Assembly (NCBI RefSeq): GCF_023028225.1
Contig: NZ_CP095482.1
Location: 1,612,001-1,676,000, forward strand
Reading direction: 5' to 3'
DNA length: 64,000 bases
Source of the DNA: Halorientalis litorea
Lineage (GTDB): Archaea; Halobacteriota; Halobacteria; Halobacteriales; Haloarculaceae
Shown here: in pieces, positions 1,917 to 44,976 of the stretch
How positions within the stretch are numbered: position 1 is the first letter of the stretch
Layout of the letters: each line of letters opens with the position of its first letter
The notes under the pieces: generated by a model
Seen by the model: only the letters and a program-made list of their open reading frames with translations
Told to the model about the DNA's origin: nothing
The model's database searches: none
Position numbers and translations under genes: made by a program

Positions 1917-1997
1917 ATGGCCGCTTCCGACGGGTGGCGCTGGTGCTGGCCCTTTCCCCCGGAAGCGGACAGTCTCGCGGTCACGATTGTGCGGTAA
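1917..1997 (+). CDS. tryptophan-rich leader peptide upstream of trpS (26 aa)
   Basis: A 26-codon ORF (ATG 1917, TAA 1995-1997) lies between endA and trpS. It encodes MAASDGWRWCWPFPPEADS followed by LAVTIVR, with Trp at codons 7, 9 and 11. Tryptophan is one of the rarest residues, so three in five codons directly before the tryptophanyl-tRNA synthetase gene is unlikely by chance. The ATG lies about one promoter length after a TATA-like box. The stop codon sits in an 11-bp hairpin (1978-2006). By analogy with bacterial attenuators it would sense charged tRNA-Trp; this is inferred, and nothing here shows that the peptide is made. Confidence 0.6.
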   Translation: MAASDGWRWCWPFPPEADSLAVTIVR

Positions 1998-2027
1998 TCG
2001 TGGCCGTCGTTGCTCACTCCGCTTTTT
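1921..2027 (+). promoter_or_regulatory. candidate attenuator RNA of trpS
   Basis: Three segments can pair in exclusive ways. CCGCTTCC (1921-1928) is the perfect complement of GGAAGCGG (1961-1968), and the Trp codons lie in that loop. GGAAGCGG can instead pair with CCGCTTTT (2019-2026, two G-U), which hides the five-T run at 2023-2027. A separate hairpin, 1978-1988 with 1996-2006 (11 bp, one G-U), spans the leader stop. GTTACTCACTCC at 1901 recurs with one change at 2009. The switching model is inference. Confidence 0.45.
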
Positions 2028-2071
2028 CGACGCGAGTCGCCCCGGCGAGAAAGGACGCCAGAACGACACAG

Positions 2072-3694: not shown

Positions 3695-4114
3695 TTACAG
3701 TCCGTCCAGCGCGGCCACGACTAGTTCGGCCGTCGCCTCGGCTGCCGCCTCGCCACCGTTCTCGACTGCGACTTCGACCACCTCTCCGCCAGTGTCCACG
3801 AGGACCGTCGCTGCTTCCCCGCTCCCCTCGATTGCCACGTCGACGGCATCGGCCCCGGCGTCGACGACGGCGTCGGCGTGGTCGAGTCGTTCGTCCGGGC
3901 GGACGGCCGCTTCGATATCGAGGGTCCCGGCGTCCGGGACCGACACCCCGTCGAGCGCGCTCTCGATACTGCGCGGGTCGGGCATCGCGCCTCCGAGACC
4001 GGTGCCGAACTCCGCCGCGAGGGTATCGAGTGTATCGGTGTCGACAGGGACCTCTGCCGGTACGAACACGTCGAACCAACCGGACCGACGGTCGTCAGAA
4101 TCCTCCGAATCCAT
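3695..4114 (-). CDS. acidic hypothetical protein
   Basis: A 139-residue acidic protein, convergent with trpS and ending 3 nt after it. After a short N-terminal part (WFDVFVPAEVPVDTDTLDTL) it is dominated by Ala, Glu, Asp and Val. No membrane segment, signal peptide or metal site is visible. The composition and use of GC-rich third positions match real haloarchaeal genes, but I do not recognise a family. The ORFs on the other strand here look like shadows. Confidence 0.6.
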   Translation of the reverse strand: MDSEDSDDRRSGWFDVFVPAEVPVDTDTLDTLAAEFGTGLGGAMPDPRSIESALDGVSVPDAGTLDIEAAVRPDERLDHADAVVDAGADAVDVAIEGSGEAATVLVDTGGEVVEVAVENGGEAAAEATAELVVAALDGL

Positions 4115-4171
4115 GTGCGACGAACACGCGAGTCTGCGTAATATGTGTTCGGTCCCTGCTTCGACAGCGGT

Positions 4172-4181
4172 ACGTTTTTAC
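4172..4181 (+). promoter_or_regulatory. promoter of the pheS leader
   Basis: The T-rich stretch ACGTTTTTAC is a TATA-like box centred near 4177. A start site about 27 nt downstream coincides with the ATG at 4205, so the Phe-rich leader ORF would begin at or near the 5' end of the transcript. A second weaker candidate (CCGTTAAC, about 4412-4419) could serve pheS directly. Confidence 0.45.
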
Positions 4182-4204
4182 TCGACTGTCACAATCGGTT
4201 CCAC

Positions 4205-4285
4205 ATGGCACTCGAACCCCACTGCCGGTGTTCTGCCCGCAAACGACGGTTCCGTCCGGGGTTCGGCTTCTTTTTCGGCGCGTGA
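4205..4285 (+). CDS. phenylalanine-rich leader peptide upstream of pheS (26 aa)
   Basis: A 26-codon ORF (ATG 4205, TGA 4283-4285) precedes pheST. Its first part is MALEPHCRCSARKRR and its end is FRPGFGFFFGA: five Phe in the last eleven residues, including three consecutive Phe codons (TTC TTT TTC). It has the same length as the Trp-rich leader of trpS and also starts about 28 nt after a TATA-like box. It is followed by hairpins before pheS. The obvious reading is a sensor of charged tRNA-Phe that governs the synthetase operon; this is inference by analogy with bacterial leader peptides. Confidence 0.6.
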   Translation: MALEPHCRCSARKRRFRPGFGFFFGA

Positions 4286-4290
4286 GTCGG

Positions 4291-4403
4291 CGGCGGAATC
4301 CGCCGGCGGGGTGACACTCCGCGGGGGACGAAACCGACCACGCCCGGAACGCGAGGGCGGCCGGAGAGCCCTCGACACGAACGAGCGGCGACACGAACGC
4401 CGC
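4291..4403 (+). promoter_or_regulatory. three hairpins between the Phe leader and pheS
   Basis: Downstream of the leader stop are three perfect 6-bp stems: CGGCGG/CCGCCG with a 3-nt loop (4291-4305), GAGGGC/GCCCTC with a 9-nt loop (4353-4373), and GCGGCG/CGCCGC with a 7-nt loop (4385-4403). No T run follows them; the only U-rich stretch is inside the Phe codons themselves (4268-4275). A role in attenuation is possible but not shown. Confidence 0.4.
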
Positions 4404-4459
4404 GAGTGAGAACCGTTAACTGACCGACCCGCGCCGTATACGACAACGACTACCGACGC

Positions 4460-6025
4460 ATGAAACTGCCACAGGCACAGGTCGCGGTGTTGGAGGCCGC
4501 GAGCGCACAGGAGGAACGGACGATAGACAGAATCGCCAAGGACGCCGACCTCAAACCCGAGACGGCGACTGGGGCGGCCTTCGAGTTGGAGGAGGCGGGC
4601 TTGGTCTCGGTCATCGAGCGGACGAGCAGTGACTTCTCGCTGACCGAGGAGGCCGAGGACTACGTCGAGACGGCCCTGCCGGAACTACGCCTCTACCGGG
4701 CGGCCGCCGAACTGGGAGCCGAAGACGACCCGGTCGAACTCGGGCAGGCCATCGGTGCGGCCGACCTCGACGGTCCGGCCGTCGACATCGCGCTCTCGAA
4801 CTTCGCCCGGAAGGGCTACGGGAGCGTCGACAGCGGCGAGGTGACGATAGACCCGGACGCCGACCCGGACGCCGACCGGGAGGCCGCGGCCTTGGAGGCC
4901 ATCGCGGACGGGACTGCGGCGTACCAGAGCAACCTCGCCATCGAGGACTTGGAGAACCGGGGACTGGTCGAGCGCAGCGAAACCACGGTGCGCTCGGTCA
5001 CGCTGACCGAGGCGGGCGTCACCGCCATGATGGAAGGCGTCGAGACGGCCGAGACGGTCGGGCAGGTCACCGCCGACCTGCTTACGAGTTGGGCGGAGCG
5101 AAGCTCCGCCGACCGTTCGAGCGGCCACGGGCCGCGAGAAGATGGCGAGTGGCGGGACGCCGAGTTCGCCGAGTACAACGTCGAGGCCGACGCCGAAACC
5201 GTCACGCCCGGGAAGAAGCACGTCCTTCAGCGGATGTCCGAACGGGTGAAAGACGTCCTCGTCGGGATGGGATTTCAGGAGATGCAGGGGCCACACGTCG
5301 ACGCGGACTTCTGGATAAACGACTGTCTCTTCATGCCCCAAGACCACCCCGCGCGGAACCACTGGGACCGGTTCGCGCTGGACAACCCCGCGGAAATCGA
5401 CGAGTTGCCCGCGGACCTCGTCGAACGCGTCGAACGCGCACACCGTGAGGGCGTCGGCCCCGACGGCGAAGGGTATCACTCGCCGTGGGACCTCGACTTC
5501 GCGAAGGCACTCGCCCTGCGGGGACACACGACCTCACTGACCGCCCGACACCTTTCGGGCGAAGCGATGGGCGAGTTGGAGCCACCACAGCGGTTCTTCT
5601 CCATCGAGAAGGCCTACCGGAACGACACGCTCGACGCCACGCACCTGCTCGAGTTCTTCCAAATCGAGGGGTGGGTGATGGCCGAAGACCTCTCGGTTCG
5701 TGACCTGATGGGCACGTTCACCGAGTTCTACGAGCAGTTCGGCATCACCGACATCGAGTTCAAGCCCCACTACAACCCATACACCGAACCGTCCTTCGAG
5801 TTGTTCGGCCGCCACCCCGAGACCGACGAACTCATCGAAATCGGCAACTCGGGCATCTTCCGTCCGGAGATGCTCGAACCGCTCGGCGTCGACTGTGACG
5901 TGATGGCGTGGGGCCTCGCCCTAGAGCGTCTGCTGATGCTCGTCACCGGCGCGGAGGACATCCGGGACGTACACGGGACGCTCGTGGACTTGGATTTCCT
6001 GCGGTCCGAGGAGGTGATTTACTGA
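4460..6025 (+). CDS. pheS: phenylalanyl-tRNA synthetase alpha subunit
   Basis: The 521-residue class II catalytic subunit forms, with PheT, the heterotetramer that charges tRNA-Phe. The N-terminal 200 residues hold winged-helix repeats, as in archaeal and eukaryotic cytosolic alpha subunits. The catalytic core follows, with motif 2 around FFSIEKAYRNDTLDATH and motif 3 near the C-terminus (VMAWGLALERLLML). Length agrees with archaeal PheS. Its stop overlaps the pheT start (TGATG), which signals translational coupling. A Phe-rich leader ORF lies 174 nt upstream. Confidence 0.96.
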   Translation: MKLPQAQVAVLEAASAQEERTIDRIAKDADLKPETATGAAFELEEAGLVSVIERTSSDFSLTEEAEDYVETALPELRLYRAAAELGAEDDPVELGQAIGAADLDGPAVDIALSNFARKGYGSVDSGEVTIDPDADPDADREAAALEAIADGTAAYQSNLAIEDLENRGLVERSETTVRSVTLTEAGVTAMMEGVETAETVGQVTADLLTSWAERSSADRSSGHGPREDGEWRDAEFAEYNVEADAETVTPGKKHVLQRMSERVKDVLVGMGFQEMQGPHVDADFWINDCLFMPQDHPARNHWDRFALDNPAEIDELPADLVERVERAHREGVGPDGEGYHSPWDLDFAKALALRGHTTSLTARHLSGEAMGELEPPQRFFSIEKAYRNDTLDATHLLEFFQIEGWVMAEDLSVRDLMGTFTEFYEQFGITDIEFKPHYNPYTEPSFELFGRHPETDELIEIGNSGIFRPEMLEPLGVDCDVMAWGLALERLLMLVTGAEDIRDVHGTLVDLDFLRSEEVIY

Positions 6026-7767
6026 TGCCAACAGTCGAAGTCGACCCCGACGAACTCCGATACCTGACCGGCCGCGACGAGAAAGACGACGCGGAACTGA
6101 AAGACGACCTGTTCGCCCTGGGCCTCGAATTCGAGGGCGAGACCGAGGACGGCGAGTTCGAGTTGGAGTTCGCACCCGACCGACTCGACCGCCTCTCCGT
6201 CGAGGGCGTCGCCCGGTCGCTGCGCTACCAGTACGGCGACGACCGCGGGGTGTACGTCCCGAACACGAACGACCCCGAGTGGACCATCCGCGTCGAGGAC
6301 GTGCCCGCCGAACGACCCTACGTCACCGGTGCGGTCGTCCGTGGACTGGACCTCGACGAGACGACGCTGGAGTCGCTCATCCAACTGCAGGAGAAACTGC
6401 ACGCGACGATGGGTCGTCAGCGCGCGAAGGGTGCCATCGGCGTCCACGACCTGACGATGCTGAAAGGCGAGACGCTCCGGGAGGACGACGACGGGGCCAA
6501 GTCAGTCACCTACACGGGTATCGACCCCGACGGGGACACGTTCGTCCCGCTGGAGGGCGACGCCGAGATGACGCCCGCCGAGACGCTGACCGACCACCAC
6601 ATCGGACAGGAGTACGCCGACCTCGTGGGCGAGTACAGTCGGATGCCGGCCATCTACGACGAGGTCGGCCTGTTCTCGTTCCCGCCGGTCGTCAACGGCC
6701 GGCGGACTGAGGTGTCGACCGACTCGCGGGACCTGTTCATCGAGATGACGGGCACCGACCAGTGGACCGTCGACCGGATGCTCGCCATCGTCTGCTACGC
6801 GCTGGACGCCCGCGGGGGCACCGTCGAAGAAGTCCGGGTCGACTACACCGACTCGGCGGCCGGCGCGCCGGACCGGGGGGCCGAACTGGTCCGCCCGGAC
6901 CTCGAAACGCGGGCGAAAACCGTCGTCCACGACGACATCGAGACGATGCTGGGAATCGACCTCGCGCGCGAGGACGTGGTGGACTTGGTCGAACGGGCCG
7001 GGATGGACGCCACGGTCAGCGAGGCGGACGACGAACTCACCTACGAGGTGACGGTCCCGCCCTACCGGACGGACGTACTCCACCCCGTCGACCTCGTGGA
7101 CGACATCGGGCGCGCCTACGGGTTCAACGAACTCGAACCCCGGTACCCCGACGTGTCGACGGTCGGCGGCCGCCACGAGCGGTCGCGGTTAGAGGACGCC
7201 GCCCGCGAGACGCTGGTCGGACTGGGTTTCGAGGACCTGCTGAACTTCTACCTGATAGACGAGGAACAGAACTACGAGCGGATGGGAATCGCCCAAGGGA
7301 CCGACGCCGTCGGGGGTGGCGAGGCCGTCACCATCGAACAGCCCTACAGCGAAGACTTCACCATGGTCCGGACGTGGGCACTCCCCTCGGTCATGCTGGT
7401 GTTGGAGAACAACACCCACCGCGCGTACCCGCAGGACCTCGTGGAAATCGGCCTCGCGGCCGAGGTAGACGAAGCCGAGAACACGAACGTCGCGGAACAC
7501 CGCACGGTCGCCGGCGCGCTCTGTCACGCCGGCGCGTCCTACGAGGACGCCAAGGCGAAACTCCAGGCACTCGCCGCGGCCTTCGACAAGGACCTCGAAA
7601 CGCCGGCGACGGACCACCCGACGTTCATCGACGGCCGGACCGCGAGCGTCGTCCTCGACGGCGAGGCAGTCGGCGTCGTGGGTGAGGTCCACCCCGAAGT
7701 CATCGTCGAACACGACCTCGAACTGCCGGTGGCGGCGTTCGAGTTCCGACTGGACGCCCTGCGGTAG
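6025..7767 (+). CDS. pheT: phenylalanyl-tRNA synthetase beta subunit
   Basis: The 580-residue archaeal-type beta subunit contains the B3/B4 editing domain (centre of the protein) and the B5 DNA-binding-like region and catalytic-like core near the C-terminus. The archaeal form lacks the N-terminal EMAP domain of bacterial PheT, in agreement with this length. The ATG at 6025 overlaps the pheS stop by one base. An in-frame upstream extension lies within pheS and is discarded. It ends in VAAFEFRLDALR just before a structured spacer. Confidence 0.96.
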   Translation: MPTVEVDPDELRYLTGRDEKDDAELKDDLFALGLEFEGETEDGEFELEFAPDRLDRLSVEGVARSLRYQYGDDRGVYVPNTNDPEWTIRVEDVPAERPYVTGAVVRGLDLDETTLESLIQLQEKLHATMGRQRAKGAIGVHDLTMLKGETLREDDDGAKSVTYTGIDPDGDTFVPLEGDAEMTPAETLTDHHIGQEYADLVGEYSRMPAIYDEVGLFSFPPVVNGRRTEVSTDSRDLFIEMTGTDQWTVDRMLAIVCYALDARGGTVEEVRVDYTDSAAGAPDRGAELVRPDLETRAKTVVHDDIETMLGIDLAREDVVDLVERAGMDATVSEADDELTYEVTVPPYRTDVLHPVDLVDDIGRAYGFNELEPRYPDVSTVGGRHERSRLEDAARETLVGLGFEDLLNFYLIDEEQNYERMGIAQGTDAVGGGEAVTIEQPYSEDFTMVRTWALPSVMLVLENNTHRAYPQDLVEIGLAAEVDEAENTNVAEHRTVAGALCHAGASYEDAKAKLQALAAAFDKDLETPATDHPTFIDGRTASVVLDGEAVGVVGEVHPEVIVEHDLELPVAAFEFRLDALR

Positions 7768-44864: not shown

Positions 44865-44976
44865 CGGGCCGGGAGGGAGTTGAACCCCCGACCATCTGGT
44901 ATCTTCCGAAACCACCCAAACCCGGCGTGCGGTTTCGTTAAAAGCCAGACGCTCTGCCTAACTGAGCTACCGGCCC
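44865..44976 (-). tRNA. tRNA-Lys (TTT) with intron
   Basis: On the minus strand: acceptor GGGCCGG/CCGGCCC, D-arm GCTCAGTTAGGCAGAGC, anticodon stem TCTGG/CCAGA, loop CTTTTA-intron-A with anticodon TTT, T-loop TTCAACT and discriminator G. The 38-nt intron sits at the canonical 37/38 position, and GAAACC/GGTTTC inside it forms the central helix of a bulge-helix-bulge. The splicing endonuclease encoded at 850-1866 would remove it. Confidence 0.93.
44901..44938 (-). other. intron of tRNA-Lys
   Basis: The 38-nt insert follows A37 of the anticodon loop. GAAACC and GGTTTC pair next to the splice sites, giving the expected bulge-helix-bulge. Confidence 0.85.

Follow-up and report, generated by a model that had tools for sequence, protein, structure and literature searches.

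A Phe-rich leader ORF ahead of pheST in haloarchaea is a candidate attenuator sensing charged tRNA-Phe

The pheST operon of Halorientalis litorea is probably controlled in cis by a ribosome-mediated attenuator that reads the charging of tRNA-Phe. We analysed a stretch of 64,000 nucleotides from this haloarchaeon, referred to as the window, in which a short Phe-rich leader precedes the operon. This leader looks like a gauge that would turn pheST on when charged Phe-tRNA is scarce. Its putative role as a Phe-tRNA sensor is well supported, and the termination step is one that we infer. The initial annotation had proposed an attenuator sensing charged tRNA-Phe, and we find support for it on comparative grounds, as sequence comparison shows conservation of the leader, its frame, the spacing of its start, a helix that we call P0, a bias towards U in the Phe codons and a hairpin after the stop codon. 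P0, the U-tract and the post-stop hairpin were absent from that annotation, and it is with them that a Phe-rich ORF becomes a plausible attenuator. The features of the locus are listed in the table.

Table. Features of the pheST leader region, in window coordinates
Feature	Positions	Strand	Basis
Leader promoter, BRE/TATA-like box ...GTACGTTTTTACT, TTTTT at 4175-4179	4168-4182	+	Conserved spacing to ATG
Leader ORF, ATG, 26 codons + TGA, peptide MALEPHCRCSARKRRFRPGFGFFFGA	4205-4285	+	ORF translation, conservation
Helix P0, 5' strand (UCGAACCCC; codons 3-6)	4212-4220	+	Pairs with 4258-4266; covariation; MFE fold of 4205-4345
Helix P0, 3' strand (GGGGUUCGG), with first block Phe codon F20 (4262-4264)	4258-4266	+	Covariation, MFE fold
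Phe codons F22-F24, TTC TTT TTC = U-tract, T5C at 4271-4276	4268-4276	+	UUU enrichment, T-runs
Post-stop hairpin: P1 4291-4293/4334-4336; 3x3 internal loop GGA (4295-4297)/GAA (4330-4332); P2 in 4299-4328	4286-4340	+	
pheS	4460-6025	+	NCBIfam PRK04172, E=5e-171
pheT	6025-7767	+	NCBIfam TIGR00471, E=1e-122

The 26-codon ORF that the initial annotation had placed upstream of pheS-pheT is exactly as described, with five Phe residues among its last eleven (FRPGFGFFFGA), three of them consecutive. The gene order is trpS, a short minus-strand ORF, the leader, pheS and pheT, and 174 nt separate the leader from pheS. The minus-strand ORF has 139 codons (3695-4114). Elsewhere in the window, a 112-nt Rfam tRNA match on the minus strand (44865-44976) was not called by ARAGORN and is likely to be an intron-containing tRNA. 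NCBIfam models gave no match to four leader peptides.

Loci were gathered via PheS, from 80 named haloarchaeal loci and additional loci from 242 genomes of the class, all of which carry pheS. A matching Phe-rich leader was found in 126 of 149 haloarchaeal pheS upstream regions, which are not a random sample because the loci were partly picked by similarity or genus. These leaders represent 118 distinct peptides, mostly of 25-28 residues, with the consensus M-A-[SP]-E-[PS]-H...G-F-G-F-F-F-A; the leader is missing from about 15% of loci, some of which have short upstream regions. A covariance model of the element (R2) matched 118 of the 145 class genomes searched at E<=1e-5; at E<=0.01 it reached 52 of 58 genera. 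Some of the genomes searched had also supplied sequences to the model. For the 50 hits whose coordinates were compared, pheS always followed on the same strand at a distance of 25-178 nt. In the window, R2 matched 4205-4340 (E=4.7e-24), and the pheS site is the sole convincing match to a covariance model in its own genome. A second match there (E=0.016) falls inside a long gatA-like reading frame and was treated as chance, and a minus-strand match to the hairpin-only model R1 over the same place as the element (E=0.17) was taken as a mirror of the inverted repeats. Among 80 genomes searched across the phylum, R1, a weaker model run with strict filters, found no match in those from outside the class; this only suggests that the element is absent there.

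The Phe-rich leader occurs beyond chance and there is strong evolutionary evidence that it is coding. We anchored loci on three marks, with no ORF required: a TTTT box, an ATG that follows it by 28-31 nt and the complementary strands of P0. The spacing was divisible by three and free of stops in 99 of 100 anchored loci, and the one exception, L058, is a metagenome assembly. Phe makes up 36% of the last ten residues compared with 0.6% of the variable middle of the leaders. Phe-rich ORFs could have been absent from relatives, which would have spoken against the initial annotation; they are instead nearly class-wide. Four loci (L058, L063, L119 and L133) keep parts of the element with a leader frame that is broken or lacks a start. 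Sequencing error is the likely reason in L058 and L063, and real decay is possible in L119 and L133.

Both ends of the leader are constrained by RNA pairing. In the P0 consensus, codons 3-5 of the leader (YCC GAA YCC) form base pairs with GGR UUC GGN, the codons for Gly-Phe-Gly, and compensatory changes occur between the two strands. The wobble positions near the leader start (GCA, GAA) are conserved because the RNA pairs in P0. Across 98 leaders, the true register gave on average 8.0 paired positions out of 9, compared with at most 5.9 in shifted registers, and when P0 strands were reassigned between leaders, none of 2000 reassignments matched the true pairing. The combination CCC:GGG was found 42 times and TCC:GGA 33 times, CCC:GGA was never found, and CTC often occurred with GAC. 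By inspection, Haloferacaceae show further compensations, CTC GAA CGC with GCG UUC GAG in L080 and GGACCC with GGGUCC in L123. When the whole structure was aligned (alignment A2), 16 of 24 pairs had double-sided changes, a level reached in 0 of 500 shuffles; the shuffles ignore the relatedness of the sequences, and the slid-register controls, which keep it, also score far lower. In the predicted fold of RNA from the window, P0 and the post-stop hairpin form and the U-tract is unpaired; the single-sequence folding energy is ordinary for the composition of this RNA (z=-0.64). The case for the predicted structure rests on covariation, not on folding energy. A scan for bacterial-type terminators did not detect P0, whose loop is too long for that scan.

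P0 and the U-tract are positioned at the regulatory codons themselves. Within the block, 93 of the 431 Phe codons (22%) are UUU, compared with 77 of 1543 (5%) in pheS. Of 110 leaders, 61 had a run of at least five T, whereas recoding of Phe at 5% TTT produced such runs in 8.6 leaders on average and in no more than 19; two loci of this set were wrongly oriented, and its related leaders are not independent. Where Val occurs within the block, it is encoded by GTT in 14 of 15 cases, which preserves the T-run. A T-run of at least four was present in 77 of 118 leaders. The other 41 have none, commonly reading TTC TTC TTC, and thus the U-tract cannot be the whole story. In a reporter in H. volcanii, T5C terminated 95% of transcripts in vivo (PMC7237163), and Methanococcus aCPSF1, a nuclease, binds U4-tracts (PMC8716108).

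The hairpin opens with GGYGGA, mostly 4-9 nt past the stop codon, and returns with CGAAACC. Its GGA/GAA internal loop is nearly invariant while both helices vary, and 16 of 19 hairpin pairs change on both sides (alignment A1); R1 matches the hairpin of the window with E=1.6e-6. The leading edge of a ribosome lies about 13 nt ahead of the first base of the codon in the A site. The median distance from that base to P1 is 30 nt for the first Phe codon, 18 nt for the last and 9 nt for the stop codon. These distances suggest that the hairpin stays free while a ribosome sits on the Phe codons, whereas the 5' strand of P1 would be covered once a ribosome stands at the stop codon. The likely task of the hairpin is therefore to pace the polymerase or to report where the ribosome is. 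Two other readings of this region were set aside. The strand order of the GGA/GAA loop does not fit a K-turn (by reasoning only), and an alternative fold, in which the 3' strand of P1 would pair with the strand of the Phe codons, with one mismatch in most species, is not claimed.

The start of the leader is conserved too. The initial annotation had noted a TATA-like box shortly 5' of the ORF, and the TTTTT indeed begins at 4175, 30 nt before the ATG. An alternative in-frame GTG at 4145 would give an ORF of 46 codons. Of the 118 distinct leaders, 10 lack a TTTT box in range; in 105 of the remaining 108, the distance from the first T of this box to the ATG is 29 or 30 nt, which marks the ATG at 4205 as the conserved start. 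A spacing of about this length is expected of an archaeal TATA box when transcription begins at or within a few nucleotides of the ATG, and we would therefore predict a leaderless mRNA that starts there. Leaderless transcripts make up 72% of the protein-coding transcripts of H. volcanii (PMC4983044). The dRNA-seq study of that species lists a 26-aa ORF with a pI of 5.9 in the long 5'-UTR of pheS (HVO_2948) and marks no extra TSS for pheS (PMC4983044 Table 2). This position inside the pheS 5'-UTR suggests that in H. volcanii the uORF and pheS may share a transcript (PMC4983044); 26-aa leaders with a pI of 5.9 are present in one haloarchaeal genus of our set (g31). A TSS downstream of 4205, which would contradict the initial annotation, is thus supported neither by the predicted start nor by the H. 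volcanii data. A further BRE/TATA-like sequence, GAACCGTTAACTGACC, is conserved about 40 nt before pheS (4410-4425, plus strand) and occurs also at loci without the leader. It might be a second promoter of pheS, but in H. volcanii this gene has no extra TSS marked.

Based on these features, we propose the following model. When Phe-tRNA is ample, a ribosome translating the leader in vivo would pass the Phe codons and leave at the stop codon. P0 would then close beside the exposed U-tract and transcription would end early, through the U-tract itself and/or aCPSF1/FttA, so that little pheST would be made. When Phe-tRNA is scarce, the ribosome would stall at the Phe codons, where it would mask the U-tract together with the P0 3' strand. 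The post-stop hairpin would be left free and RNA polymerase would proceed into pheST. The weakest step of this model is timing. P0 can form ahead of ribosome loading, and by the time the ribosome arrives at the Phe codons RNA polymerase would already be beyond the U-tract. This order of events is at odds with intrinsic termination alone and calls for a factor that acts on emerged RNA, as has been described for aCPSF1/FttA. No competing antiterminator pairing was found, and the Natrialbaceae alignment held no conserved competing helix; the sole apparent mutual exclusion is by the ribosome.

The same parts could also be used after transcription. A stalled ribosome might protect the mRNA from a nuclease or expose it to one, such as aCPSF1 at the U-tract, or it might alter the translation of pheS. 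The charging of Phe-tRNA would then set mRNA half-life or translation, not termination. That aCPSF1 is a nuclease binding U-tracts (PMC8716108) agrees with this possibility, as do the leaders without a T-run, which fit a mechanism independent of a terminator. However, pheS starts 25-178 nt past the hairpin, and the Natrialbaceae alignment revealed no conserved fold from the hairpin to the pheS start; the spacer there varies in length, and no second conserved hairpin was found between leader and pheS. We regard control after transcription as unlikely, while giving it some weight. We see less reason to believe that the hairpin is a protein-binding site, possibly for PheRS itself in an autogenous circuit, with the ORF setting the timing or adding a second layer. 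A GGA/GAA loop that stays nearly invariant while the helices vary does suggest recognition. Such a site would leave the Phe codons, the coding frame and P0 unexplained, however, and the freely varying length and loop of P2 offer no obvious mimic of tRNA.

It is more doubtful still that the leader is an ordinary small-protein gene that happens to precede pheS. Its frame looks translated, and the authors of the H. volcanii study put the 26-aa ORF among small proteins and uORFs (PMC4983044). On the other hand, RNA pairing fixes the two ends of the leader, even at wobble positions, whereas the middle of the peptide is variable; Phe is confined to the end, and the link to pheS held in all 50 genomes compared. 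Least credible of all is the reading that the ORF is incidental to a structured non-coding RNA or riboswitch: strong covariation and a variable P0 loop would suit it, but 99 of 100 spacings are multiples of three and free of stops, and none of the families in Rfam 15 matched the element at the gathering score. Attenuation by charged tRNA-Phe remains our preferred reading.

A second leader in the window, upstream of trpS, shares the apparent design of the Phe leader, with Trp codons in place of Phe codons. In this Trp-rich ORF (MAASDGWRWCWPFPPEADSLAVTIVR, 1917-1997, plus strand), CCGCTTCCG (1921-1929) is complementary to CGGAAGCGG (1960-1968), which follows the Trp codons. The pattern CCRCTTCC-N15-60-GGAAGYGGACAGT occurred in 15 of 194 class genomes, always with TGG in between, and a reversed control pattern gave zero matches. 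By inspection, nine of the 15 matches are followed by a TrpS-like start, as in the TrpS of the window, and another four have leaders like those seen before annotated plasmid trpS genes. The Trp leader is missing before most of the chromosomal trpS genes examined. In H. volcanii, dRNA-seq placed a 23-aa ORF before a gene for a tryptophan--tRNA ligase, with no extra TSS marked (PMC4983044). Between the Trp leader and trpS lies a T5C, CGCTTTTTCG (2020-2030, plus strand).

These two leaders raise the broader possibility of a general class of haloarchaeal leader-peptide attenuators acting on aminoacyl-tRNA synthetase genes, with the Phe leader nearly class-wide and the Trp leader in several genera. 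In such attenuators, a leader of the leaderless type would fold its start region onto the regulatory codons, and in the Phe leader the Phe codons would also serve as the archaeal terminator. We advance this whole picture tentatively, as it is somewhat easier to doubt than to accept. If it is true, sensor and terminator can be one set of codons, and a stalled ribosome would hide the terminator directly, with no choice between two RNA folds. According to a 2021 paper, neither transcription attenuation nor antitermination had a known example in archaea (PMC8448881), and our literature search found no archaeal attenuator, a result that later or subscription papers could change. As haloarchaea are genetically tractable and the Phe leader is nearly class-wide, archaeal attenuation and the coupling of ribosome and RNA polymerase could be tested by reporter.

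Several known systems resemble parts of this element. The H. volcanii uORF before HVO_2948, which we liken to the Phe leaders by its length of 26 codons and, for those of genus g31, by its pI of 5.9, and which lies in a long 5'-UTR, appears only as a table row that gives no sequence and mentions neither Phe codons nor structure, conservation or regulation (PMC4983044 Table 2). The T-box riboswitch of bacteria would similarly sense tRNA charging before aminoacyl-tRNA synthetase genes. It binds tRNA directly, whereas the sensor proposed here is translated, and the T-box covariance model did not match the element at the Rfam gathering score or at E<=5. The haloarchaeal T5C terminator (PMC7237163) is contained in TTC TTT TTC. 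Here it lies inside a reading frame, a placement that was considered difficult in a G+C-rich genome (PMC7237163). The element also resembles bacterial leader-peptide transcription attenuators of the trp type and E. coli pheM-pheST, where a short leader rich in the cognate amino acid also precedes the operon of the cognate aminoacyl-tRNA synthetase, the regulatory codons lie near or within a leader helix and a U-rich terminator-like element is present. The comparison with PheM is one of design only, as the peptides are too short for a meaningful test of homology. In contrast to the bacterial attenuators, no antiterminator pairing was found in the haloarchaeal element; its host is an archaeon, its start is of the leaderless type, a hairpin with a GGA/GAA loop follows the stop codon, its helix is formed by the leader's own first codons, and its U-tract consists of the Phe codons themselves.
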